This document shows, in pieces, positions 24,171 through 60,417 of a stretch of DNA of 64,000 nt (the stretch's first letter is position 1; every line of letters starts with the position of its first letter). The DNA is taken from assembly GCA_020052415.1 (NCBI GenBank), contig JAGVPB010000024.1, positions 1-64,000 of the forward strand. The letters run 5' to 3'. Made by a program: the position numbers and the translations under genes. The notes under the pieces are model-generated. The model saw only the letters and a list, made by a program, of their open reading frames with translations. It was not told the origin of the DNA and ran no database searches. This stretch comes from Bacteroidales bacterium (lineage in GTDB: Bacteria; Bacteroidota; Bacteroidia; Bacteroidales; JAADJA01).

Positions 24171-24281
24171 AATTCTGAATTTTTAAAAGGCAAAAATATT
24201 AAATATCCGGGAGGTTCGGCTTATGAGGGGAAATGGGGAATATTGAAACCTGGAAGCTGAAACTACATTGGACATTTAACG

Positions 24282-24407
24282 TTGACCCTTGAACTTTGAC
24301 CCTTGAACTTTGACCCTTGAACTTTGACCCTTGAACTTTGACCCTTGAACTTTGACCCTTGAACTTTGACCCTTGAACTTTGACCCTTGAACATTGAACC
24401 TTGAACT
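24282..24407. repeat. 14-bp tandem repeat, nine units
   Basis: The unit TTGACCCTTGAACT is repeated at exact 14-bp spacing: seven perfect units (24282-24379), one with a single change at its last base, and one with TTGAACC in place of TTGACCC. It ends 36 bp before a -7 promoter element. There are no spacers, so it is not CRISPR. The 296-bp gap 24171-24466 holds only this and the promoter. Confidence 0.95.
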
Positions 24408-24442
24408 TTATTTTCCCTTCCCTCTCTGTTATAAAAAATATT

Positions 24443-29614: not shown

Positions 29615-31348
29615 ATGTTCAGGTACAGTGTCATACTGATTTTTTTCTGCATTCCATTATACCTCCTGGCTTCAAAGCTTAACCGCGATAGTTTGCAGCA
29701 AAAAATATATATTACCAACATACCGGCCGAAAAAATAAAACTCTTAAACCTGCTTTCAGAAAGCTGGATGGATGATGATCCGATAAAATCATATCAACTT
29801 GCAAAAGAAGCCCTGTCATTGGCAGAATCAGTGGATGATATTGAGGGCAAAGCAGAATCACTTTATACACTCGCAGTTCATTCCTATAAGCAAAATGATT
29901 ACATTATTGCTGGCAATTTATTGATTCAGTCGCAGGAAATATTCAGGGAAAATGAAAATTCTGAGGGATATGCAAAATCTTCGCTTGAACTGGGAAAGGT
30001 TTATGCACGTCAATTTGAATATGAAAAATCACTTGAAGCTCTGTTTTTAGCATCGGAAATTTTTCAAAATCTGCAGCACTATGATAAACTCGCTGAAACT
30101 TTCAACAGCATAGGTGGAATATATTATGACCAGCTTAATTATGATAAAGCTTTCGAATACTTTCAAAATAGTCTTCTTACCTGGACAAAGATTAACAATG
30201 GACAAGGATTGGCAATTGCCTATAATAATCTTGGAGAAATTTACCGGCTCACAGGCAAACTTGAAAATGCCATGGATTATTATCGAAAATCAGTTCCTAT
30301 CAATAAATCCATTGAACGATTGGATAACCTGGCATACAATTATGATAATATAGCTAATATTTTTATTGAACTGGGTGAGTATGACTCAGCAAATTACTAC
30401 TTAAAAGAAGCACTAAGACTTACTAATTCTATCGGTAATGAATATATTGCCTCGTTTGTTTATTTGAGTTTGGGAAAATTATATGAACAAACTGAATTTT
30501 TTGACCTGTCACTAAAATACTTTGACAGCAGTTACAAATTAGCCGATAAAACCGGAGCGCTATATAATATTAAGGATGCTACCTTCGGAATGAGCGAAGT
30601 ATATTATGCGAGAGGGCAATTTGAACAAGCATTTAATTACCATCGGATTTATAAAAAAATTGGCGATAGCCTCAACAGCATTAATAATCTTGAAAAAATA
30701 ACACAGCTTGAAATGAAATTAATTTTTGAGCACGAAAATAAATTGAAGGCTCAGAAACTGGAAAATACTAGATATCTCTATATGGTAATTGCGTTCTGTC
30801 TATTAAGTTTTTTAATTATTGCATTTTTATTTTACGGCAGATTAAGAATTAAAAACAAACATTCAAAAATAGAAAAGGAAAACCTAAGGCTGGAAAGTCA
30901 GCAACTAACCAAGGAGTTAAATTTTAAAAACCGTGAATTGGCAATAAATGTGATATATCTTGTAAAAAAGAATGAACTGATAAATTTTATAAGTGAAAAG
31001 TTACTCAGAGCAAAATCAAGGTTTAAAGCTGAAAGCCAGGTCATGATCCAGGAAATGATCATTGAACTCCAGGCGAGCATTGATTCGAATATATGGAAAA
31101 CTTTTGAACAACGATTTCTTGAAGTTCATAAAGAGTTTTATGAGAAATTGAAAAATAATTTTCCTGCTCTTTCTGAGAACGACAGAAAACTTTGTGCATT
31201 GCTGCGATTAAATATGAGTACTAAAGATATTGCAGCTATTACACATCAAAATCCCAATAGTATTGAGGTAGCCCGGACAAGATTAAGAAAGAAATTGCTG
31301 CTATCGAATAAAAGTATTAGTCTGGTAACTTTTTTGGAAAGTTTTTAA
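29615..31348 (+). CDS. Membrane-anchored TPR protein with C-terminal HTH
   Basis: The protein has 577 residues. A signal/anchor segment (1-20) is followed by TPR-type helical repeats to about 355, for example LAETFNSIGGIYYDQLNYDKA and LAIAYNNLGEIYRLTGKLENA. A membrane segment lies near 388-410 (YMVIAFCLLSFLIIAFLFYG), then a coiled coil and a LuxR-like helix-turn-helix at the C terminus: LSENDRKLCALLRLNMSTKDI, then NSIEVARTRLRKKL. The TPR part should be periplasmic and the HTH cytoplasmic, making this a one-component membrane regulator. Its stop codon overlaps the start of a paralogue by 1 nt (TAATG). Confidence 0.85.
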   Translation: MFRYSVILIFFCIPLYLLASKLNRDSLQQKIYITNIPAEKIKLLNLLSESWMDDDPIKSYQLAKEALSLAESVDDIEGKAESLYTLAVHSYKQNDYIIAGNLLIQSQEIFRENENSEGYAKSSLELGKVYARQFEYEKSLEALFLASEIFQNLQHYDKLAETFNSIGGIYYDQLNYDKAFEYFQNSLLTWTKINNGQGLAIAYNNLGEIYRLTGKLENAMDYYRKSVPINKSIERLDNLAYNYDNIANIFIELGEYDSANYYLKEALRLTNSIGNEYIASFVYLSLGKLYEQTEFFDLSLKYFDSSYKLADKTGALYNIKDATFGMSEVYYARGQFEQAFNYHRIYKKIGDSLNSINNLEKITQLEMKLIFEHENKLKAQKLENTRYLYMVIAFCLLSFLIIAFLFYGRLRIKNKHSKIEKENLRLESQQLTKELNFKNRELAINVIYLVKKNELINFISEKLLRAKSRFKAESQVMIQEMIIELQASIDSNIWKTFEQRFLEVHKEFYEKLKNNFPALSENDRKLCALLRLNMSTKDIAAITHQNPNSIEVARTRLRKKLLLSNKSISLVTFLESF

Positions 31349-32961
31349 TGAAGCATATTTATCTGATATTTTTTACCTTACTATTGTGTATAAAGGGCAC
31401 CTGTCAGGACCAGAAATACATGGATAGCCTGATGAGCGGACTTGATTCAGCTTTGGAAGATACGGTACGTGTCAATTTGTTAAATAAAATAGCATCAGAA
31501 TTGTTCTATGTTAACCAGGAACAAATCTATGAAATTGCTCAACAGGCATTGGAATTAAGCGAAACATCCGACTATAAAACAGGAATTGCTGAAGCTTATA
31601 ATAATCTTGGAATTTATTTTCGGTTAAAAGGAGTTTATGAACTTGCCATTGACTATACCTATAAAAGTCTGGATATAATGGAACAAACCAATAATGTCAG
31701 TGGTATAGGGCGGTGTTACAATTTGATTGGAATAATTTATTATAACCTTAACAATAATGAAATCAGCCTTGAATATTTTAGTAAGGCTCTCGAAATTGCG
31801 ATTCAGCAAAACGACAGGAAATGGATGTCGGGCAATTATAATAATCAAGGATTGGTTTATGAAAAAATTGGTGAATACGGAAAAGCACTTGAATGCTACC
31901 ACAAAGCCCTGGAAATTAATATTGAATTAAACAATAAAAACTGGATTGCAACAAATTATGGGAATATTGGCAGTCTTTACCAGATCATGGGAAATCCCAA
32001 ATGCCTTGACTATTATTTTAAGCGGCTTCAACTTAAAGTTGAGTTAAATGATGCAGCCGGTATCTCATTTTCAAGTTATCTCATTGGAAAATATTATAAT
32101 TCTCAAAATAAATTTAATGAGGCATTACCATTTTTAATTGACAGTTATTTAATCAACGATAGTATCGGTTCACTCTTACAGGTAACCAGGGTTGCCTTTG
32201 AATTAAGTAGTGCCTATGCCGGTTTGAAGAATTATGAAGAGGCTTATAAATACCAAGTACTTTATAAGCTACATGATGATAGCCTGAACTTTGAAGAAAG
32301 CACTCAAAAAATCACCAGGCTTGAAATGCAATATAATTTTAAAAAAGATCAACCACTTAAAGAGATGAGCTACCAGAAAACCAAATTACTCCAGTTCGCT
32401 TTAGGGATTTTTTTGATTTTTATGGTAATTACGGTTATTCTTCTCATTAGCAGGCAAAAAGCCAAAGTCAATCAGCAAACTCTTGAACAAAAAAAGATAC
32501 AACTGGAAAACAGCTTAATGCACGAAGAATTGATTTTTAAAGATGAATTATTACAGGATAATATTGATTATCTGGTCACAAAAAATAATCTCATTTCTAC
32601 TATTTCCGAAAAACTGATCAGAGAGAAACCAGCATTTGTTAAAGAAAATCAACATCTGATCAATGAGATAATACTTGAGCTTCAGTCAGGAATGGACAAT
32701 GATTTGTGGGAAGAATTTGAGTTACGATTTAACCAGGTTCATACAGATTTTTATAAAAATCTTAATAATAAAGCACCGTACCTTACCCTCAATGATAAAA
32801 AACTATGTGCTTTTCTCCGTTTAAATATGTCATCCAGGGAAATTGCTGCTATTACTCACCAAAGTATAAGCAGTATAGAAACCGCAAGGACGCGCTTAAG
32901 AAAAAAATTGGAAATATCAAATTTGGATCTAACCCTGCAGGAATATCTCAGTCAGTTCTGA
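31348..32961 (+). CDS. Paralogous membrane-anchored TPR-HTH protein
   Basis: The protein has 537 residues with the same layout as its upstream neighbour: signal segment ending near GTCQD, TPR repeats about 40-320 (AGISFSSYLIGKYYNSQNKF, CYNLIGIIYYNLNNNEI), a membrane segment near 346-368 (QFALGIFLIFMVITVILLIS), a coiled coil, and a C-terminal HTH LTLNDKKLCAFLRLNMSSREI with SSIETARTRLRKKLEI. The HTH parts of the two proteins are nearly the same while the TPR parts have diverged, so the pair arose by tandem duplication and may bind the same DNA or each other. The 1-nt stop/start overlap shows translational coupling. Confidence 0.85.
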   Translation: MKHIYLIFFTLLLCIKGTCQDQKYMDSLMSGLDSALEDTVRVNLLNKIASELFYVNQEQIYEIAQQALELSETSDYKTGIAEAYNNLGIYFRLKGVYELAIDYTYKSLDIMEQTNNVSGIGRCYNLIGIIYYNLNNNEISLEYFSKALEIAIQQNDRKWMSGNYNNQGLVYEKIGEYGKALECYHKALEINIELNNKNWIATNYGNIGSLYQIMGNPKCLDYYFKRLQLKVELNDAAGISFSSYLIGKYYNSQNKFNEALPFLIDSYLINDSIGSLLQVTRVAFELSSAYAGLKNYEEAYKYQVLYKLHDDSLNFEESTQKITRLEMQYNFKKDQPLKEMSYQKTKLLQFALGIFLIFMVITVILLISRQKAKVNQQTLEQKKIQLENSLMHEELIFKDELLQDNIDYLVTKNNLISTISEKLIREKPAFVKENQHLINEIILELQSGMDNDLWEEFELRFNQVHTDFYKNLNNKAPYLTLNDKKLCAFLRLNMSSREIAAITHQSISSIETARTRLRKKLEISNLDLTLQEYLSQF

Positions 32962-34367: not shown

Positions 34368-36881
34368 TCAGACAGACTGAAGAACTTCGGAGAGTTTTTC
34401 GATATCTACGGGCTTGGTTAAATAATTATTCATTCCTGCTTCATAACTCTTTTCTTCGTAATCTTTAAGAGCATGAGCCGTAAGAGCTATGATCGGTATA
34501 TTAGGATTTCTGACATTTTCTTCCCCTTTTCTGATAGCTTGCGTAGCTTCAATTCCATCCATTTCCGGCATTTCGATATCCATTAATACTGCATCAAAAT
34601 CTTCGACAGCAAGAATTTCCAAAGCAATTCTGCCATTGTTGGCAATTTTCGAAGAATGGCCCAACCGATTAAGAAAAGCTGCAATCACCTGCGAATTCAG
34701 GAGATTATCCTCTGCCACCAAAAGATGTAACTTTTTGTTTGGGATGGACAGTTTTTTATTTTTCGTGACAGATTTATCTTTATCAACCTTAAGGACAACA
34801 TCAAATTTAAACTCACTGCCATGACCTTTATCGCTTTGAACAGATATTTTACCACCCATCAATTCGACAAAATATTTGCTGATGGTAAGGCCCAGACCGA
34901 CACCACCGTACCTTCTGGTAGCCGTATTATCTACCTGGGTAAAGTCCATAAAAATCAGCTTTTGTTTCAGCTTGGAAATACCAATGCCAGAATCCCTTAC
35001 TGAAAAAATCAAATTCACATTGTCCGAATCGGATGATTCTTTTGCCAATTTTACCAGAACCTCTACAATACCCTTGTCAGTGAATTTTATTGCATTGCCG
35101 ATCAAATTATACAAAACCTGTCTCAGGGCATCCGGATCTCCTATTAATGATCTCGGAATATTTTCAGCAATTTCAAATGATAATTTTATATCCTTGCTTG
35201 AAGCATCGAGGTAGTAAGCATTTATAACTGATGTTATTAATTTGGTTAAATCAAAAGATGAAAACTTCAATTCCATTTTACCGCTCTCTATTTGCGAATA
35301 ATCAAGCACGTCTTTAATAAGTGCGAGCAAATGTTCTGAAGAATCTTTAACCCTTTTGAGGTTCATTTGATGATCATTATCAACATCGGTTTTAATAGCC
35401 AGATCACAAAATCCGATGATGGCATTTATGGGAGTCCTCACTTCATGGCTTATTGTAGCAAGAAATCTGTTCTTTGTTTCGTTTGCGAGTTCGGCCTGTT
35501 CCTGTGCAAATCTCCTCTGTTCGTTTTCTTCATGTAATCTTTTTGTCCTTTCTTCCACCCTTCTTTCCAGGTTTGAATTGAGCAGAAGCAGCTCCTCATT
35601 TTTCTTCATATTTAACCGGTACCTGTTCCACAGGATGATTACAAGTGAAAAAGCAAGAAGGGTAATAAAGATAATGACATTGCGTATATTCTTTTCCTTT
35701 GAAAACCTCAGCTCTATATCTTTTTCATTAATGACTTCCTGGCTTTCCTTTTCACGCATATCATGACTCAATTGGAGCAGGGAAATCTTATTACTTGTTT
35801 CTTCATCAAATAATGAATCCTGAAGTTCAGAACTTTCAAGGTAATATTCAAGTGCTTTTTTATAGTCGGCCAATAAGGTATAGGTTTGTGACAATTGTTC
35901 AAGTGTCTCTCTCTGTACCCTTAACAATTGTATTTCTTCGGCCAGTGCTTTACTTTCAACAAAATACTGGATGGCCAATGACAATTTCCCCGATTCTTTA
36001 TATGCAATACCAATATTTTTCAGAGTAACCGAAATTTGATTTTTATCCCCTATATTACTGCTGATGGTCAGGGCCTGCTTGTAATATTCTATAGCTTTAT
36101 CACTTTCTCTCAGAGACCGATGAACATTTCCAATATTATTAAGAATGCCGCCGGGATGCTCACCGTTATACCCTTCCTTCTGAGTCACATTCAGGGCTTT
36201 TTCATAATATGACAGGGCCATGGCATTATCATTGTCGTACCAATAAATGTTGCCGATTGATAATAGGGCATTTACAGTATTTATCAGGTCACCAGTTTCG
36301 TTGCTAATATCAAGGGCACGTAAATAATTTTCGAGGGCGATTTCTTTCTTTCCAAGGTTCCGGTAAACCACACCTGCATTTACAAGTGATGTAGCAATCC
36401 CTTTTTTATCCCCTGATTCCTCATAAATATTTAATGCATTCAAATGATATTCGAGGGCTTCAGGGTAATTGCCAAGCACTCTGCAAATCTTACCTATACT
36501 GTTGGAACATTTTGCCAGGCCATCACGGTTTGATATTTGCTTAAAAATATTTTCAGCCTCAATAAAATAATTAAATGCCTTTACATTCTCGCCTTTCTGC
36601 CTGTATCCATCAGCAATCAGATATAATGCCTTAGCCTGCCTGTATAAATCTTTCACAGACAATGACATTTCAAGGGCATTCTGAGCCAGTTCAAGGGTCT
36701 TTTGAGGATTCTGATTAAGATAACTTTCAGATAAGGTTAAATACAAATCTATTTTCTCAAGCCCGGTGCTGGTCATAATTTTTAATTCCAGTGAATCACC
36801 TGCAGACCGGGAAGCCTGTATATAATTATAACAACAGGTATAAATCAGTATGAGGAGTAGAGAGATAAAGTAATTTTTCAA
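34368..36881 (-). CDS. TPR-containing hybrid histidine kinase
   Basis: The protein has 837 residues. After a signal segment (1-22), TPR repeats run to about 365 (for example LAKCSNSIGKICRVLGNYPE and ISVTLKNIGIAYKESGKLSL). A membrane segment lies near 400-418, followed by a coiled coil, HisKA with His479 in FLATISHEVRTPINA, an ATPase domain with YNLIGNAIKFTD and GGVGLGLTISKYFVELMGG, and a C-terminal receiver with Asp768 in VLMDIEMPEMDG. It senses through periplasmic TPRs and signals by internal phosphorelay; no partner regulator is adjacent. The input half resembles the TPR-HTH proteins at 29615 and 31348 and the cyclase at 40565. Confidence 0.93.
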   Translation of the reverse strand: MKNYFISLLLILIYTCCYNYIQASRSAGDSLELKIMTSTGLEKIDLYLTLSESYLNQNPQKTLELAQNALEMSLSVKDLYRQAKALYLIADGYRQKGENVKAFNYFIEAENIFKQISNRDGLAKCSNSIGKICRVLGNYPEALEYHLNALNIYEESGDKKGIATSLVNAGVVYRNLGKKEIALENYLRALDISNETGDLINTVNALLSIGNIYWYDNDNAMALSYYEKALNVTQKEGYNGEHPGGILNNIGNVHRSLRESDKAIEYYKQALTISSNIGDKNQISVTLKNIGIAYKESGKLSLAIQYFVESKALAEEIQLLRVQRETLEQLSQTYTLLADYKKALEYYLESSELQDSLFDEETSNKISLLQLSHDMREKESQEVINEKDIELRFSKEKNIRNVIIFITLLAFSLVIILWNRYRLNMKKNEELLLLNSNLERRVEERTKRLHEENEQRRFAQEQAELANETKNRFLATISHEVRTPINAIIGFCDLAIKTDVDNDHQMNLKRVKDSSEHLLALIKDVLDYSQIESGKMELKFSSFDLTKLITSVINAYYLDASSKDIKLSFEIAENIPRSLIGDPDALRQVLYNLIGNAIKFTDKGIVEVLVKLAKESSDSDNVNLIFSVRDSGIGISKLKQKLIFMDFTQVDNTATRRYGGVGLGLTISKYFVELMGGKISVQSDKGHGSEFKFDVVLKVDKDKSVTKNKKLSIPNKKLHLLVAEDNLLNSQVIAAFLNRLGHSSKIANNGRIALEILAVEDFDAVLMDIEMPEMDGIEATQAIRKGEENVRNPNIPIIALTAHALKDYEEKSYEAGMNNYLTKPVDIEKLSEVLQSV

Positions 36882-40550: not shown

Positions 40551-40588
40551 CGGCAAAGTCACACCTACAACTCAAACCCACCTCCATG
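40551..40588. repeat. Dispersed 38-bp repeat, copy 1
   Basis: It starts CGGCAAAGTCACACC and ends CTCCATG. It matches 47970-48007 at 35 of 38 positions in the same orientation. It overlaps the 3' end of the cyclase frame. A further shared CTCCACGCTC lies at 40630 here and directly after copy 2. Confidence 0.85.
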
Positions 40589-42577
40589 TCGAAGCGAAGC
40601 GAAGATCCCGCCAACGGCGGGGCTCCCAGCTCCACGCTCATTTTCATGCTCTACGATGTACATATCTATTTCGCCTTTATTCTTGGCCTCAATCTTCCCG
40701 CGATATGAGCAGGTGAATTGATCTTTTATCAGATTATAGGTAGTACCGGAAATATTTACCTGTCCCGGAATACCGCTCGATTCCATTCGGCTGGCTGTAT
40801 TAACGGCATCGCCCCAGATGTCGTATGCGAATTTATTCTTGCCAACAACTCCTGCAATTACAGGCCCTGTGTGTATTCCAATCCTCAGTTCCCAATAATC
40901 CTTTCCACTGGCTTCCCGTTCGGATTTCAACTTTTCCATGTATTCCTTGATTTCCAGCGAGGCTTTTACAACATCAACCGGATTGGTTTGATTAGTCACA
41001 GGTATTCCACCGGCACACATGTATGCATCTCCAATGGTCTTTATTTTTTCAAGATTGTGTTTGTCAATGATCCTGTCAAACTCCATAAAACACTGATTAA
41101 GTTCCTCAACAAGCTCTTGCGGTGTAAGCTTTTCAGCTATTTTCGTAAATCCTTTGAAGTCGGTAAACAAAACTGAAACGGTATCATAATGCTTTGGCGT
41201 AGCCGACCCTTTCTGTTTTAATTCTTCAGCAGTTTCATAAGGCAGGATATTTAGCAGCAGCTTGTCCGAACGCTCCTTTTCATCTTCAATGATCTTCTTG
41301 GTTTTTCTAACGTATTTGTACCGGTTGAACAATCCAATGACCACGATCAGGAGAAGAATCCCGGTAAGGACTGAGGCATTGCGAATTATTTTTTGCCTTT
41401 TGATATCGAGTTCCTGCAAGGCTTTATCCTTGGTAAGAAGATCAATCTGTCCCTGTTTCTTTTCAAGGTCAAAATTTAAAGTCATCGCCTGCAATCGTTT
41501 ATCCATTTCGGCATTGTATAAAGTGTCCTTAATGCCTGTGAACAAAGTCTGGTACTTAAAGGCATTTTGAAAATCGGATAATTTGAAATAGGAAAGAGCC
41601 AAGCCTTCATAAGCATCTTTGAGTTCATAATCAGCCCCGATGTTTTCTGCGATGGACCGGGCTTCCTGGTAAGTTTTAGCAGCAGAATGAAAATCCTCCT
41701 TCATTTCATAAGTAGTAGCGAGACCAAGCAGCGATTGTGCCATTTCAAGTCTTGCATTGAGGCTTTTTGCTTTTTCAAAAGCTTCCTTTTGTTTTCTGAT
41801 TGCCGTGTCGTAATCTTTGCGCTTGGCATACACTTTTCCAATATTATTCAAGGCATAGGAAACATTCCCGCTTTGTGATTTTTGATATGCAACAAGGGAT
41901 TTGTCGAAATAATACAGCGCCGAATCATCCTTATCCCTTTCGAGATAAATTTCTCCAATATTTACAGATGAGGTTCCAATGGCGTCATTATCCCCAAGTT
42001 CTTCACTTAAGGGTAAAGCTTTTAAATAATATTCAAGTGCCAGATTATGGGTTGCTTTCTTATTGAAATAAACTGCCCCAAGATTTACCAGCGCAGTCGC
42101 TATCCTCAGTTTATCATTGATTTCCTCCGAAACACGAAGAGATTCCAGATAATTGACAACTGCCTTGTTATCATCTCCCTGGTTGAAATAAATGGCTCCG
42201 ATATTGTTCAGCATGTTGGCAACCCCTTGTTTGTCATCGATTGAATCGAATGTAGCTTTTGATTGTTGCCAGTAGTTAATGGTTTCAAGGTATTCTCCCT
42301 GGAAATAATAACTCATTCCAATATATTTCAGCGACAATGCCACATCTTTTTTCGATCCCAGCCTTTCCGCAATTTCCTTAGCTTCCATGCCGAACCGGAT
42401 TGATTCTGCAGGCGAGGCTCGGGAATAATATTTACTGAGAGCAATTAAGATATTCACCTTTACAGTATCCTCCTTAGCCGATCCCAATAAGGTTTTCAGG
42501 CTGTCACCCGGATTGTTTTGTGCAAGGATTAATGCAAATTGAAAAATAATTAAAAGGCTTAACAGAAATCTTCGCAT
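40565..42577 (-). CDS. TPR-containing membrane adenylate cyclase (class III)
   Basis: The protein has 670 residues. Signal peptide (1-20), TPR repeats about 40-345 (VANMLNNIGAIYFNQGDDNK, IGTSSVNIGEIYLERDKDDS), membrane segment near 395-415, coiled coil, then a class III cyclase domain. The domain has the metal Asp residues in LFTDFKGFT and IGDAYM, the adenine-selecting Lys in EKIKTIGD and Asp in YDIWGD, and the transition-state Asn/Arg in AVNTASRM. Specificity residues fit ATP, so the product should be cAMP. The usual family end is near GEIDMYIVE; the last about 26 residues are encoded by repeat-like DNA and are probably an accidental extension. Confidence 0.92.
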   Translation of the reverse strand: MRRFLLSLLIIFQFALILAQNNPGDSLKTLLGSAKEDTVKVNILIALSKYYSRASPAESIRFGMEAKEIAERLGSKKDVALSLKYIGMSYYFQGEYLETINYWQQSKATFDSIDDKQGVANMLNNIGAIYFNQGDDNKAVVNYLESLRVSEEINDKLRIATALVNLGAVYFNKKATHNLALEYYLKALPLSEELGDNDAIGTSSVNIGEIYLERDKDDSALYYFDKSLVAYQKSQSGNVSYALNNIGKVYAKRKDYDTAIRKQKEAFEKAKSLNARLEMAQSLLGLATTYEMKEDFHSAAKTYQEARSIAENIGADYELKDAYEGLALSYFKLSDFQNAFKYQTLFTGIKDTLYNAEMDKRLQAMTLNFDLEKKQGQIDLLTKDKALQELDIKRQKIIRNASVLTGILLLIVVIGLFNRYKYVRKTKKIIEDEKERSDKLLLNILPYETAEELKQKGSATPKHYDTVSVLFTDFKGFTKIAEKLTPQELVEELNQCFMEFDRIIDKHNLEKIKTIGDAYMCAGGIPVTNQTNPVDVVKASLEIKEYMEKLKSEREASGKDYWELRIGIHTGPVIAGVVGKNKFAYDIWGDAVNTASRMESSGIPGQVNISGTTYNLIKDQFTCSYRGKIEAKNKGEIDMYIVEHENERGAGSPAVGGIFASLRHGGGFEL

Positions 42578-42732: not shown

Positions 42733-45700
42733 TTATTTTCTAATAATCCTGAACAATTTTTGTTCGTCAATAAGTTTCAGCCGGATAATGTAAACACCGG
42801 ATTTCATCACTGAAAAATCAATTTCCAGTATTGATTCTGATAGGTCAATTATATATGCAGGGCAAACATTGCCAAAAAGGTCATAAACGATAACATCCTT
42901 ACCTGTAACCATTTCTTCACCAATGTTAATATAAACTTTATCCGATGTCGGATTGGGATAAGCAACAAAATCCTGAAGCTGAATAATCGAATCTTCATCA
43001 GGATTGATCAGTTCCGATGATTTATTGCATTTTGCAGATGAGGAACTGGCATTCGATGCAGTTGATGATTTATGATTGCCATTCCAGCTTTTTACTGACC
43101 AGGTTAATTTATTTCCATCGAATCTTGCATCCCAGGTGCCTGTTCCGGGCATAAATAACTCCGGTTGCATACTGTTTTCGAAATAACCCTGACCAGTCAG
43201 TTTATTATCCGGTCCAATAGGGACAAAAACAGGAGTAGCATTGTCATTTTGATAGGCAAAATGAGCAATGTAAGTAAATCCGGCATTATCCGGTGGTATT
43301 TGTTCCACACAAATCAGGCTTGTCTTTACATTCTTTGTACCCGGCCCATAAGGATTTACATAAAGTGTCCCATTGATGACGGTAAAAGTATAATTATTTG
43401 CACTAGCCGCCGGTATGATCTGATAAACACCGGCAGAACCGGCATAAGCAGGACTCAGGCTAAAAGTTAGTGAAGTAACTACTGATGAATTTTCGCCATT
43501 GACAAATCCGCTGAAAGTCGCTGTAAAAGATGGTAACGGCGATCCCTTGTCTATAACTTTGTTGTCTGCTTTCACTGTTGCGATAGCTTGATTTATGACC
43601 AGGATTCCATTGGTACTTCCCGTATAATTTTGTTCATTCGTAATAGCTGTAACGATGTATGAACCGGCATCTTTTGGATTGCCCGAATAGGATACTATAA
43701 CCGATAATCCGGTAGGCACTGTAGTAACTGAGGCAGCTTTGATTGTCCCATCATAGGTATGATCAAGGTCTCCAAGAACTAATGTCGCATCTGCCGGTTG
43801 AATAATTAAAGTTGCCACAGCCGATCCCAAATAATTCAGATCATTGATTGTGGCTGCGACGTTGTAAATCCCTGCATTCACAGGTGGAATTGTGTCGCCA
43901 TTAAAAGTAAAATCAACATTAAGGTCTGGCGGTACTGTCGAGACGACAGGTAACTTTTCATTTCCATCATAGATTTGTGTGAGACTTTCTTCGTTAAAAG
44001 CAATTGTTGCCTGTGCTGGCGTAATAGTCAGAATTCCGAGACCATACGACACATTGAAGTTATTCGTAAGAAATCCTCCCGGTACGATCAAATGCTGACC
44101 AACGGTATTTCCGGTAATCAAACTGATTGACCGGAGGTTAATGGTTCCCACAGAATCGCCGGCAAGAATGGCAATGTCACCCTCCCCTAAGATCACGATG
44201 GTTTCGTTGTTGCTGTTTGCATTGATTGTTGTGGCATTTACAAGAGCCGTGGCATTGACCAGGGCAGTCGCGTTTACCAGTGCTGTCGCGCTGATCAGGT
44301 TACCGTCCTCATCGTAAGTATTGACCAAAGCCGTTCCATTTACAAGAGCCGTGGCATTGACCAGTGCTGTTCCATTCACAAGGGCCGTGGCGTTAACAAG
44401 CGCAGTAGCATCAAGTAATGCCTGTGGATCTATCAGTGTGCCATTCACAAGAGCAGTAGCATTAACCAGTGCCGTGGCTTCTGAAATCAGAAAGCTCTTA
44501 TTTACCAAAGCTGTAGCATCCAAAAGCGGTTCGCCAAATTCATTCACCAATGCCGTTGCATTTACAAGGGCAGTTGCGTTGACAAGTGCAGTTGCATGCA
44601 TCTGTTGTAATGAAGATGTAATGGCTTCCTGATCCGCCTCAGTTATTACTACATTGCTGTCCGGATCAATGGTATTGTTATTGAAAAAATAGGTAAAATC
44701 AATGCCCGAAACAGAATCTCCATAGACAAATGTTGTGTCTTTTGGCTGAATCAACAGCTCCATTTTTTCAATCGAAAGCAAACCGTTAATAAAAACAAAA
44801 TTGTACTGGTTCAATAAAGCAATGTCAAGTGTATCGGTTGCGGTAATTGCGCTTTCGGGATTGAGGGGATCGCCCGCAGAAGGCTCTATTTCCCATAATC
44901 CCGTATTACTAAGCGAAGTGGCAACGGTAGTGAATGGGATATCCTTAATTCTTGTTATCCTGTTTGCACTGATCCCGCTTGAGTCAATCGGCATACTTCC
45001 ATTTATGCTTTCGATGGAATAGTTTGCAGTAAATTCGGGAAGTATTTCACCATATTTTTTTGACTTGTCATCAATGGTAATGAGAACCGTTTCTTTTGTG
45101 TCGAAATACAATGGATTGGAAAGCCCTCCATCTGATCCGTTTGTTCCGTCCATAGGTGGATTATAAACCTGTATAGGATTGTACAATCCGGTAAATTCAG
45201 GAACTGTGCCTGTGAGTGTCGTACCATTAACGATGGCAGTACCTGATTCAAGAGGCACACCACTAAAATAGATTACAGAACCATCGGTAAAATAATTTCC
45301 GGTTACTGTAATTTCTATGGGTTGATCTCCGGGAACAAAGGTTGTATCATATTGAAGCCCGGTTAAGTAGGGCGAAGGGTTAGCCATTATCAGTAATGCT
45401 GCATCTGCCTGAATAAATCCGTATCCGGTCGAATAATCAAATCCCGGTGTATTCATGTCAAGGGCTGTATTTACCAGAGTGGCTTTTATTTGATCGGGTG
45501 AAAATGCATCTCCATAAAATTTTGATCTGCCTTCCATGATCAATGCTGCAACTCCTGCTGCGTGGGGCGCAGCGGCAGAAGTGCCAAAAAAGTTTGGAAA
45601 AGGATCGCCGTCAATGTTCACACCACCCAACTCAACTGTGGTATTAACACCATTAGGTGCGGTGATCTCCGGTTTGTTTCTTACCATTCCATTCACAGGG

Positions 45701-47598
45701 GTACCGCCAACCGAAGAAAATGAAGCGATTGTCGGGGGATCTACTCCAAAGGGTGGTGTATTGCTGTAAAGTACGGCTCCAACTGCAATCGCGCCTGAAG
45801 CATTTGATTGTCCAACCAAAGTGGAGTTTCCAGAATTGTATTCATTAAATGTCAGATCACCGCGAAATACAATAAATTTAAGATACACACTGGCCCCTCC
45901 TGAGGCTTTTACAATCATAATATTTGTTTGAGCGCCTCCTGTTGTCACAGTGAATGGCAAAACCTCGATGGGTTGGCCCCCAATATTGCCCCTGTTAAAT
46001 CCAAACAAAGTGGTTCCATTATCATTGGTCAGGTATATGTCGAGATCGGTTGCGGTATTTTCAGAGCCCGAACCATCATCCCATTGCAGAACTATTGTAT
46101 AGTTACCTTCACCCAAAGAGACATTCTGGTAAATATCATTACCTCCGCCACCTGCAAAGTTGTGAGCAATACCGGCAATTCCCGGAGGTGTAATTCCATC
46201 ATAAAAGGTACTTTGATAAGATTTGTTTCCATAGTTACCAGCAGCAGAAAAATAGGTAACGCCGAGGGCTTTAACTTCATCCACAGCTTGAGCAACTTCA
46301 CCATCCGTGAGAAAAGGCTGAGTAATATATGTGATGTCGTCAATAATGATATCACAGCCTGCCTGTTCCAAATCCCTGATGCCATCGGCAAAATCCGTGG
46401 CATTGATAAATCCTGTCCGGAATGCAAGTGTCGCACCAGGAGCAATATCGTGAATGATCTGAAGCATAGCTCTTCCTTCGTCAGTTCGTGTTCCATAGGG
46501 ATAGTCAAGCAAAACCTCGACAGGATTTGGATTATCCGGATTTACAGTGCCCGGGAGATCACCCTTAAGAACATCATCATGAGCCGGATCGCCAAGTTGA
46601 GTATTATAACTATCCGAAATCACACCTATCTTCACACCTTCTCCATTTAAATCAAACCCATTACGCGTGAAATCGGATCTCATAGAAATGTCACCAAGGC
46701 TGGTAATAATACCGCTCGTCGGGATACCAGGGTAAACCGGCACTGCATAATTGATATATGCAGTCAGATCGTTTAAAGACAGCAGCACACTGATGGGTAT
46801 TTTACCAATAATCACATTCATATCCGGATCGGAAACAATGTCGGTTAATCCGTATGAGGAAGTCAGCAAATCAAGTAAAACATTGTACTGACCGTTTATC
46901 GGGAAAATTTCAACTAAAACAGTGGTGCCAAAAATCTGAAAGATGTCATTCGATTCAGCCTCTCCGGTAGCAATGAATTTGTTGTAAAGTGAGGTTAACT
47001 CCGGGCCGATGAGTGAAATAAGTTTACCTCCTTCAGGAGGTGTATAATAAGGGATTATGTTCTGGTTACTACAGTCAAGAACAGATTGAAAATCAGCAAT
47101 AGTAAAATTAACTATTAAAAAATCACCTCCTGCCTTAACCTGTGTACTTTGATTTTGCAGGCCTCCCGTGAGTGTATAAGTAATAGTAAATTCACCAGGT
47201 TCACCATTTCCAAAACCTGCAGTTCCTGTTAATCTAAATCCGGTAAAGGGATCACCTCCCAGGTTTGGACCCAAATCTATATTATTATAATTCAGGTTGC
47301 CTGAAATCACGGTGACAAATACATCTGAATAAGTTCCCGGCAATGCTTCAACTGAATATCTCGCCATGGCTTTACAGTTATTTGTACAACCATTATGTTT
47401 CACGCTAAAAACAATGGTATAGCTATTATTACCATTATTGGTCACAGATTTTATAGCCGTTGTGTATCCCTGACCATGGTTCTTGGTTAAATCACAACTG
47501 TTCTGGGCTACTATAATTTCAGAGGGTATGGCGATTAATATTAAGCAAGCTGGAATAAATAATAATACTTTATTAAATTTTCTTATAAAGTTCTTCAT
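42733..47598 (-). CDS. Giant T9SS-secreted subtilisin-like protease with MBG domains and ATALVN repeats
   Basis: The protein has 1621 residues: signal peptide 1-32; a beta-rich N-terminal region to about 300; an S8-like domain about 315-740 with Asp329 in GVISDSYN, Glu374 in DEGRAMLQIIHDIAP where subtilisins have His, oxyanion Asn455 in AAGNYGN and Ser674 in GTSAAAPHAAG; a TIG-like domain near 745-830; MBG-type domains about 838-990 and 1190-1440; and a type A T9SS sorting domain at 1545-1621 (YPNPTSDKVYINI, GVYIIRLK). Fourteen ATALVN-type hexapeptides (1002-1121) interrupt an MBG-like fold. It is expected at the cell surface. It stands alone, with its own terminator. Confidence 0.9.
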   Translation of the reverse strand: MKNFIRKFNKVLLFIPACLILIAIPSEIIVAQNSCDLTKNHGQGYTTAIKSVTNNGNNSYTIVFSVKHNGCTNNCKAMARYSVEALPGTYSDVFVTVISGNLNYNNIDLGPNLGGDPFTGFRLTGTAGFGNGEPGEFTITYTLTGGLQNQSTQVKAGGDFLIVNFTIADFQSVLDCSNQNIIPYYTPPEGGKLISLIGPELTSLYNKFIATGEAESNDIFQIFGTTVLVEIFPINGQYNVLLDLLTSSYGLTDIVSDPDMNVIIGKIPISVLLSLNDLTAYINYAVPVYPGIPTSGIITSLGDISMRSDFTRNGFDLNGEGVKIGVISDSYNTQLGDPAHDDVLKGDLPGTVNPDNPNPVEVLLDYPYGTRTDEGRAMLQIIHDIAPGATLAFRTGFINATDFADGIRDLEQAGCDIIIDDITYITQPFLTDGEVAQAVDEVKALGVTYFSAAGNYGNKSYQSTFYDGITPPGIAGIAHNFAGGGGNDIYQNVSLGEGNYTIVLQWDDGSGSENTATDLDIYLTNDNGTTLFGFNRGNIGGQPIEVLPFTVTTGGAQTNIMIVKASGGASVYLKFIVFRGDLTFNEYNSGNSTLVGQSNASGAIAVGAVLYSNTPPFGVDPPTIASFSSVGGTPVNGMVRNKPEITAPNGVNTTVELGGVNIDGDPFPNFFGTSAAAPHAAGVAALIMEGRSKFYGDAFSPDQIKATLVNTALDMNTPGFDYSTGYGFIQADAALLIMANPSPYLTGLQYDTTFVPGDQPIEITVTGNYFTDGSVIYFSGVPLESGTAIVNGTTLTGTVPEFTGLYNPIQVYNPPMDGTNGSDGGLSNPLYFDTKETVLITIDDKSKKYGEILPEFTANYSIESINGSMPIDSSGISANRITRIKDIPFTTVATSLSNTGLWEIEPSAGDPLNPESAITATDTLDIALLNQYNFVFINGLLSIEKMELLIQPKDTTFVYGDSVSGIDFTYFFNNNTIDPDSNVVITEADQEAITSSLQQMHATALVNATALVNATALVNEFGEPLLDATALVNKSFLISEATALVNATALVNGTLIDPQALLDATALVNATALVNGTALVNATALVNGTALVNTYDEDGNLISATALVNATALVNATALVNATTINANSNNETIVILGEGDIAILAGDSVGTINLRSISLITGNTVGQHLIVPGGFLTNNFNVSYGLGILTITPAQATIAFNEESLTQIYDGNEKLPVVSTVPPDLNVDFTFNGDTIPPVNAGIYNVAATINDLNYLGSAVATLIIQPADATLVLGDLDHTYDGTIKAASVTTVPTGLSVIVSYSGNPKDAGSYIVTAITNEQNYTGSTNGILVINQAIATVKADNKVIDKGSPLPSFTATFSGFVNGENSSVVTSLTFSLSPAYAGSAGVYQIIPAASANNYTFTVINGTLYVNPYGPGTKNVKTSLICVEQIPPDNAGFTYIAHFAYQNDNATPVFVPIGPDNKLTGQGYFENSMQPELFMPGTGTWDARFDGNKLTWSVKSWNGNHKSSTASNASSSSAKCNKSSELINPDEDSIIQLQDFVAYPNPTSDKVYINIGEEMVTGKDVIVYDLFGNVCPAYIIDLSESILEIDFSVMKSGVYIIRLKLIDEQKLFRIIRK
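44236..44595 (-). repeat. ATALVN hexapeptide repeat array in coding DNA
   Basis: 360 bp encode 120 residues with 12 ATALVN and 2 GTALVN units in six clusters, separated by short linkers such as EFGEPLLD, KSFLISE, GTLIDPQALLD and TYDEDGNLIS. The codons vary between copies (GCC, GCA, GCT, GCG for Ala; GTA, GTC, GTG, GTT for Val), so the array is conserved as protein and not as DNA. The opposite strand is also open, giving a mirror ORF that is not a gene. Confidence 0.95.
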
Positions 47599-59700: not shown

Positions 59701-60417
59701 ATGCCAACGAAAATTAGACTGCAGAGAAAGGGTAAAAAGGGTCAGCCTTTTTATCATATTGTAATTGCGGATGGTCGTGCACCACGGGATGGCAAATTCA
59801 TCGAACGCATTGGCACATATAATCCGTTAACAAAACCGGCGGACATCAAAATGGATTTCGACCGGGCGCTTTACTGGCTTCAAACTGGAGCACAGCCAAC
59901 CGATACGGTAAGGGCTATCTTTTCTTATCACGGAGTTCTGTATAAGAATCATCTTGCAAAAGGAATAAAAAAAGGAGCTTTAACACAGGAACAAGCTGAT
60001 GTAAAATTCAGTGATTGGCTGAAAGAAAAACGGACGAAGATCGAAAGCAAAACCAAACAGGTTGAATCAGATAAAAAAGGTGAAAGCAAAAAGCGCCTTG
60101 ATGAGGAAAAAAAGGTGAATGAAGCAAGAGCAGAGGAACTTGCCAAAAAACGTGCTGCCGAACTTAAAGCTGAAGAGGCTAAAAAGCATAAAGCTGAAGA
60201 AGTTGTAGCTGAAACTCCTGTTGTAGCTCCAGTAGTTGAAGAACCAAAGGTTGAAGATGTTGTGGCCGAAGAATCAAAAGTCACTGAAATTGTAGCTGAA
60301 GAACCAAAGGCTGAAGAGGTTGTGGCTGAAGAATCAAAAGCCTCAGAGATTGTTGCCGAAGAACCAAAGGCTGAAGAGGAAGTTACTGAAGAACCGAAGG
60401 AAGAAAAACAGGATTAG
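59701..60417 (+). CDS. rpsP: 30S ribosomal protein S16 with long acidic tail
   Basis: The protein has 238 residues. Residues 1-60 are the S16 core ([58 protein letters not shown]). The basic helix around 100-155 is rich in Lys and Glu, and the last 75 residues are imperfect repeats of the type VAEEPKAEE / VAEESK, ending in EEKQD. S16 in most bacteria has about 80-90 residues and in Bacteroidota often about 180, so this tail is long even for the phylum. S16 binds 16S rRNA in the 30S body. It is followed by rimM, the usual partner. Confidence 0.95.

Follow-up and report, generated by a model that had tools for sequence, protein, structure and literature searches.

The stretch of DNA analyzed here (the window; 64,000 nucleotides of a Bacteroidales bacterium) encodes a large protein in which a six-residue word is repeated 14 times, in codons that differ from copy to copy. 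This raises the question of what keeps the word uniform and whether anything reads it. Taken with its neighbor, the gene looks like one half of an undescribed recognition or signaling pair, consisting of an exported protease-like protein and a membrane sensor of a kind that can bind peptides.

The array and its carrier protein

The array lies in an open reading frame on the reverse strand (42733-47598) whose product, an S8-family protein by Pfam, has 1,621 residues. The order of its parts is a signal peptide at the N terminus (read by eye), an S8 domain (Pfam stretch at residues 554-727), MBG domains, the array, MBG_3 and MBG_2 domains, and a T9SS type A sorting tail at residues 1547-1611 (Pfam and NCBIfam TIGR04183). 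An earlier note on this DNA had described 12 ATALVN and 2 GTALVN units at residues 1002-1121, i.e., positions 44236-44595 on the reverse strand, and our recount confirmed them. The recount gave five clusters, not the six described, in the layout 3-1-2-5-3, with the linkers EFGEPLLD, KSFLISE, GTLIDPQALLD, and TYDEDGNLIS. The closest orthologues have both the cluster layout and the linkers in common with the window. Two other repeats were recorded elsewhere in the window: a 14-bp tandem repeat at 24278-24409 (9.4 copies, 96% matches) and 30/60-bp repeats at 60232-60400. The latter lie inside the long C-terminal extension of a ribosomal protein S16 (59701-60417), which matches its family at residues 9-67.

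It had also been proposed that the array is inserted in an MBG-type domain. The piece after the array (43957-44235, reverse strand, a stretch that also takes in the start of the next domain) weakly matches the 72-position MBG_2 model PF18676 when scanned apart. The match spans model positions 27-72 for the window, and 29-72 for loci L020 and L011. The piece before the array (44596-44808, reverse strand) was assigned by alignment to L020 and has no MBG_2 match of its own in the window; the corresponding piece of L020, scanned apart, matches positions 1-34, and in L024 positions 1-23 are found ahead of the array. The matches of the pieces scanned apart are below the cutoff (E values of 0.0015 to 0.057). 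The whole L020 domain is above it (27.3 versus 25), and whole domains of 15 of the 21 members match MBG_2 at E ≤ 1. Because the two pieces of L020 cover positions 1-34 and 29-72, the array splits an MBG_2 domain, as had been supposed. The counterpoint is that in the window and L011 the piece ahead of the array matches YonK instead (E values of 0.00074 and 0.024, below the YonK cutoff). Our best reading is that the MBG_2 domain would be the scaffold into which the array is set. Ordinary MBG domains follow the array in the window, and neither the MBG_2 nor the MBG_3 model (PF18676 and PF18887) includes an inserted array.

The S8 domain accompanies the array throughout. One S8 family was found in 37 of the 39 array genes collected, and the other two genes are cut before the S8 domain. 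These domains are about 46 to 81% identical to that of the window (L151 shows 84 residues only). When the domain was searched alone at E ≤ 1e-40, there were 11 matches in 9 of 198 genomes, 10 of them in array genes; the eleventh is on a contig fragment of genome G277, whose array sits on another contig. The GTS and GN motifs, which we take to be the subtilase motifs of the catalytic Ser and the oxyanion Asn, are invariant in all 35 aligned domains. At the apparent position of the HGTH-type motif (judged by eye), which in subtilases carries the catalytic His, all 35 have DEGRAM, and the Asp motif has D in 28 and N in 7. An invariant DEGRAM beside retained Ser and Asn motifs makes protease activity uncertain, and the domain (45364-46713) is possibly a Glu-based or inactive variant. 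The activity implied by the description "secreted protease" in the earlier note is thus in doubt.

Conservation and diversity of the word

Thirteen distinct DNA sequences encode the 14 units of the window, and the codon identity between units is 0.33, versus the 0.34 that codon usage in the rest of the gene would give by chance. We compared nine orthologues of like layout in 36 pairs, leaving out L014, L015, L017, and L019. The pN/pS values were 0.035/0.713 for units (a ratio of 0.05), 0.166/0.796 for linkers (84 columns, including ones gapped in the window, whose own linkers amount to 36 residues), and 0.244/0.753 for flanks. Synonymous sites were near saturation throughout, with pS of 0.71 to 0.80. 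Between the window and L011, 83 of 84 unit residues are identical, and the codon identity is 0.33, versus 0.32 expected at random. Near-saturated synonymous sites together with this residue identity indicate extreme selection on the peptide and exclude recent slippage for this gene. Judged from these coding sequences, the constraint is on the peptide, acts on nearly each residue, and is old.

These results bear out, for the window gene, the earlier argument for selection at the protein level and against recent slippage. Two contrary outcomes had been named there, loss of the hexapeptide period in homologues and identical codons with variable copy number in close strains. Neither was found: the period is kept across array genes (mostly 6, sometimes 7 or 8), and in the closest orthologues the unit number and layout are stable and the codons differ. 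In this respect the array departs from Periscope Proteins (for example, CdrA, with MBG_2 repeats), which likewise carry repeats in bacterial surface proteins and which the consulted portion of the source describes as having near-identical DNA repeats and rapid copy-number change (PMC8201768). In contrast, the DNA of the array is mostly randomized, its number is stable in close orthologues, and its unit has about six residues, so that the Periscope combination of high DNA identity and variable repeat number is absent. The array is a case of strict protein-level uniformity that would be maintained without homogenization of the DNA.

The array was found at 14 loci of public genomes. Counting the genome of origin in each case, the ATALVN query matched in 4 of 99 near relatives and an ARPLVN query in 16 of 395 genomes of the class; a match of the ARPLVN query in G412 is stop-ridden and was read as chance. 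In a draw of 395 genomes across the phylum, a profile of the domain matched 5 at E ≤ 1e-6, all of them from this class too. The genomes are samples, and many are draft assemblies. The total collection comprises 39 array genes, of which 37 were scored (partial L016 and L018 were left out); L002, L003, and L004 are the same loci as L017, L019, and L151, respectively, and each was counted once. Consensus words were assigned by eye from k-mer counts, and units for codon and variant scoring were located by patterns fixing some positions.

The 37 scored genes have 20 different consensus words, among them ATALVN, ARPLVN, ARAIVN, AKAIVN, GKGLVN, QKGLVN, GIPLVN, GHPLAN, LRGIVS, NGLSVI, AKVVTN, PRVITN, GRVVTS, GKRSVN, and GRRVVN. 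The copy number is mostly 7 to 14, with 3 exact copies in G345_99 and 4 in the cut gene of G277. Linkers of the forms SDLxNLxFLVS and VDVAxxSIFNYQ recur outside the ATALVN clade, and the slots are similar across the collection. Several arrays mix variants, most of all those of G172, G232, and G242, which may be transitional. L015 (932-5431) has nine intact units, and several of its slots are replaced by other sequence.

At S8 identities of 0.55 to 0.70, the exact word is shared in 2 of 367 different-genome pairs outside the ATALVN clade, in 2 of 8 same-genome pairs (2 more agree at five of six positions), and, by consensus, in all 60 pairs within the ATALVN clade. An additional same-genome pair, at an S8 identity of 0.83, also has its word in common. 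Within the ATALVN clade the word hardly varies at any of its six positions; the exceptions are ATVLVN, STALVN, and RTALVN. Codon identity between units is within 2 standard deviations of random in 27 of the 37 arrays, at or above that bound in 9, and below it in 1. The excess in a minority of arrays indicates that duplication or conversion occurs at times. Four pairs of paralogues sharing words have codon identities of 0.45 to 0.57 in the units and 0.40 to 0.54 in the rest of the domain; as the units are near or somewhat above the rest, fresh gene conversion as the source of these shared words is neither shown nor excluded.

Outside the family, six pattern matches on viral contigs included no relative by tblastn, and two plasmid records (Borrelia and Staphylococcus; 28 to 31% identity, E values of 6e-6 and 2e-5) were read as repeat driven. 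A literature search, with most subscription journals outside its scope, found no paper containing any of six doubled words and no account of secreted Bacteroidetes hexapeptide repeats with type IX secretion. Nor did it yield an account of MBG domain repeats in Bacteroidetes; the MBG-domain papers found were unrelated by title.

The adjacent TPR sensor

The start codon of a second gene lies 155 bp downstream of the stop of the array gene, on the same strand. This gene (40565-42577, reverse strand) encodes a TPR sensor of 670 residues, as identified by Pfam and hydropathy. The sensor has a signal-peptide-like hydrophobic N terminus, a TPR domain at about residues 25-397 (TPR_12, E value of 1.4e-34), a single hydrophobic segment at about residues 396-420, and a class III adenylate/guanylate cyclase domain at residues 462-643. 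Inspection by eye had suggested a terminator between the two genes, but a scan did not find one. The 601-bp array-to-sensor stretch holds 7 sigma-70-like sites, versus 2.0 expected. One of them (11/12, at 42875-42848 on the reverse strand) lies ahead of the sensor gene, close to where the array gene ends. These sites suggest that the sensor may have its own promoter.

The pairing recurs across the family. In 27 of the 34 array genes whose downstream DNA is readable, that of the window among them, a TPR sensor is encoded on the same strand at a distance of no more than 344 bp, 26 times downstream and once upstream (distances were measured between stop-to-stop open frames), and several pairs overlap or sit within 4 bp. 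One more array gene is followed in tandem by a second, and it is this second gene that adjoins the sensor. The pairing is absent in the remaining six, L015, L060, L061, L139, L142, and L145; L060 has a sensor with a 28% (27.8%) TPR 1.7 kb upstream. Contig or locus ends took L018, L056, L140, L141, and L151 out of this count, and the sensors of L011, L014, and L017 are cut by the locus end. In the reverse test, we read 40 regions around TPR-cyclases. Two adjoin an array (TPR identities of 41 and 43%), 2 are masked upstream, and 36 are without an array protein, 6 of these being shorter than 10 kb and read in part. L093 and L094, whose neighbors are masked, were excluded. No TPR in the 36 array-free regions exceeds 37.3% where matched at E ≤ 1e-20.

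We then compared sensor domains with those of the window. The TPR identity is 40.8 to 70.0% in linked sensors (L060 apart) versus 24 to 37% in the 12 unlinked sensors compared, whereas the catalytic domain identities overlap, at 52 to 90% in linked sensors and 55 to 69% in these unlinked ones. L010 and L012 combine a TPR of 58% identity with a HisKA/HATPase output (by Pfam in L010 and by eye in L012). Because the TPR separates the two groups, the catalytic domain does not, and a kinase can take the place of the cyclase, the TPR is the part tied to array proteins, and the outputs are exchangeable. Among 198 genomes, a linked-type sensor is present in 8 of the 9 that carry the S8 family and in 2 others with masked neighbors (Fisher P = 8e-12, falling to 2e-13 when the masked genomes are left out; the test treats two draws of 198 genomes as one set and disregards relatedness). 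No linked-type sensor was found at E ≤ 1e-40 in genome G263, whose array has 12 units of the AKAIVN type, and none was found in the genome of L015. Sensor loss with array decay, as L015 might suggest, was set aside as an anecdote, given the 12-unit array without a sensor in G263.

By sequence, the nearest solved TPRs are designed TPRs, LGN/Pins, and kinesin light chain; Rap proteins rank lower (Rap3T, E value of 8e-6; RapH, E value of 9e-4). Linear peptides are known ligands of LGN, kinesin light chain, and Rap. Other genes near the pairs were recorded as well. A small gene of about 200 residues lies near several array/sensor pairs (L053, 638-1312; L054, 3230-3877; L059, 15597-16214; L060, 13056-13676; L057, 12815-13417), with an HD domain (PF01966) by Pfam in four of the five and by BLAST similarity only in L057. 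Three more TPR proteins are encoded in the window (34368-36881, 29615-31348, and 31348-32961), with TPRs 23 to 29% identical to that of the array-linked sensor; one of them is a TPR histidine kinase with a receiver domain. PADLOC matches (subtilase, Pycsar cyclase, and TPR) were read as general domain similarity.

Does the word match the receptor? At S8 identities of 0.55 to 0.60, the TPR identity is 0.54 in same-word pairs versus 0.44 in different-word pairs, and the catalytic domain identity is 0.62 versus 0.65. At 0.65 to 0.70 the catalytic domains are also closer in same-word pairs (0.78 versus 0.62), as they are at 0.70 to 0.80, where there is one different-word pair only. The same-word pairs are almost all from a single clade, and pairs with L010, L011, L012, or L014, in which the sensor is cut or has no cyclase, were dropped. 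Across 14 taxa, with one ATALVN representative, TPR resemblance correlated with word resemblance after S8 and the catalytic domain were removed (partial r of 0.26, permutation P = 0.042). The corresponding values were 0.28 (P = 0.056) for S8 and -0.34 for the catalytic domain. TPR resemblance may thus track word resemblance weakly, which is suggestive only.

Simpler forms of correspondence were also considered. Charge complementarity was rejected: the basic words have no acidic counterpart among the TPR columns, and the TPR net charge did not correspond to the word. Basic residues do mark two TPR columns, but mainly where the word is neutral; the independent GIPLVN sensor of G454 shows this at one of the two. 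Mimicry of a TPR helix by the word was rejected too. The window sensor holds IATALVNLGAVYF, which was read as ordinary TPR consensus because sensors with other words have TALINIG or TALQNIG there. We also set aside an N-glycosylation sequon (NAT/NGT), which is missing from many words.

Readings of the array

The array may be a multivalent recognition tract that the neighboring TPR sensor reads, in place or as released peptides; this is the reading we favor, tentatively, and it could well prove wrong. The S8-family protein with its T9SS tail would display, on an MBG_2 domain serving as scaffold, mostly 7 to 14 copies of a short word that is often private to its gene. The adjacent sensor would bind the word through its TPR domain, which would lie in the periplasm, and would report inward through its class III cyclase, or through the histidine kinase that two genes have instead. 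Reading could take place in transit, with the carrier awaiting the T9SS in the periplasm, as an export checkpoint, or on a released peptide. What can be read directly from the sequences is that purifying selection acts on the word, that words differ between genes, that one S8 family is involved, that the genes are paired, and that the discriminating part is the TPR. The combination of a repeated, gene-private word with an exported carrier and a TPR sensor next door, which the earlier note had no means of seeing in full, points to recognition or signaling. Several observations weigh against recognition: the sensorless genome of G263, the six unpaired readable array genes, the arrays that mix variants, the fact that the word tracks S8 about equally, and the lack of acidic TPR columns opposite basic words. 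In addition, the conservation of linkers and of the slot layout hints at a folded domain, for which a bare ligand would have no use.

A structural or adhesive tract is the main alternative, which we regard as a little less likely than recognition. The array would be a beta-rich strip or solenoid on an MBG stalk, stacking would keep the word uniform, and the sensor would read another part of the protein. Conservation of linkers and slots across the family agrees with this. So does the presence of the same S8 domain in every array gene not cut before it, since the sensor may then read S8. Four of 21 members weakly match enzymes which we take to hold left-handed beta-helices, all below the cutoff: mannose-1-phosphate guanylyltransferase in the window, L006, and L011, NeuD also in L006, and YdcK in one other. 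An AlphaFold model of the array alone puts strands over several units. However, its confidence is low (pLDDT of 46.9), as is that of a model of the MBG and array domain from a 13-row alignment (pLDDT of 35.7), and Foldseek found no match for the array-only model (best E value of 3.9). The stacked solenoid offered in the earlier note is therefore unproven, with the weak enzyme matches to its credit, and no result here points to the adhesive strip that was offered beside it.

The repeats themselves also fit a stack imperfectly. Left-handed beta-helix repeats of the acyltransferase type resemble the array in their period of six and in their aliphatic and small residues, but the arrays break to periods of 7 and 8, even in close relatives (L017, L019, G469, and G410), which is awkward for a strict helix, and they come without a confident model. 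Stacking usually tolerates substitution, whereas the ATALVN clade is nearly frozen at all six positions. A PDB profile search of the array found nothing below an E value of 0.17, PDB sequence matches of the array were weak and taken for chance, and Hexapep was not among the Pfam families listed (25 of 29). Array segments were seen to score above the cutoff of one Pfam model only, Pam3_gp18 (PF22479), a cyanophage baseplate plug model: among 10 members scanned, L030, L020, and L021 scored 34.1, 28.8, and 27.8 bits, respectively, against a cutoff of 24.2. The window scored 11 bits, below the cutoff, and 10 of 21 members matched at E ≤ 1. We read the score as a sum of short repeat matches, since no single stretch passes the threshold and the pieces cover 20 to 54 profile positions.

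A more specific form of recognition would make the array a multicopy pheromone precursor, which we consider unlikely. After T9SS export, proteolysis would free hexapeptides, which would reenter the periplasm and bind the TPR, each lineage having its own dialect. The 14 words weighed have masses of 587 to 700 Da. The carrier and a TPR receptor are adjacent, the word is repeated and differs between genes, and the AimR, NprR, Rap, and PlcR systems reportedly include propeptides with several copies of the pheromone (PMC9765709). Against a pheromone, no cleavage site was identified, the carrier is very large with a conserved scaffold, array genes outnumber linked-type sensors in G292, G344, G345, and G431, and some arrays hold mixed words.

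The pair also differs from RRNPP(A) systems (Rap-Phr, NprR-NprX, PlcR-PapR, and AimR-AimP). As here, a TPR protein (in those systems the receptor) and an exported protein with a short peptide word, sometimes in several copies, are reported to be encoded side by side (PMC9765709, PMC10075063). The propeptide size criterion given in the consulted text is 10 to 100 residues (PMC10075063), whereas the carriers here are T9SS proteins of about 1,500 to 5,100 residues with an S8 domain. The receptors of those systems are cytosolic, whereas the TPR of the sensor here precedes a membrane segment, on the side toward the N terminus, and would be periplasmic. Its output is a cyclase or HisKA/HATPase, versus an HTH or Rap-type output, and no HTH domain was found among the Pfam matches of two sensors scanned. 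The phylum is Bacteroidota, versus Firmicutes. On these sequence features, membrane topology, output, carrier size, and phylum separate the array/sensor pair from RRNPPA. In the consulted part of the RRNPP literature that mentions Bacteroidetes, the name occurs once, as a gut phylum (PMC10075063). Searches with most subscription journals outside their scope found no account of a class III adenylate cyclase with tetratricopeptides in Bacteroidetes and none of Bacteroidota peptide quorum sensing tied to type IX secretion.

Finally, it is extremely improbable that recent slippage or neutral low-complexity expansion made the array: the codon identity excess in 9 of 37 arrays (z ≥ 2.0 as printed; strongest in L014, G431_40, and L015) speaks for it, but most arrays are at random codon identity, the units have a pN/pS ratio of 0.05, their number and layout are constant among the closest orthologues, and for the window gene it is already contradicted.

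There is a small chance that the pair represents a Gram-negative, Bacteroidota type of peptide communication, in which lineage-private hexapeptides, carried in many copies (mostly 7 to 14) on the T9SS-exported S8-family protein and freed outside the cell, would meet a periplasmic TPR receptor with a cyclase or kinase in coevolving dialects. To our knowledge, peptide signaling via TPR receptors has been described for Firmicutes, and we know of no report on the input of a TPR-cyclase sensor of the linked type. The array and its neighbor would thus be a gene pair with RRNPP-like logic in Bacteroidota, found through repeats that are nearly identical in protein and random in DNA, with words that differ between genes. 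For the TPR-cyclase sensor, they provide a ligand-receptor prediction that is directly testable.
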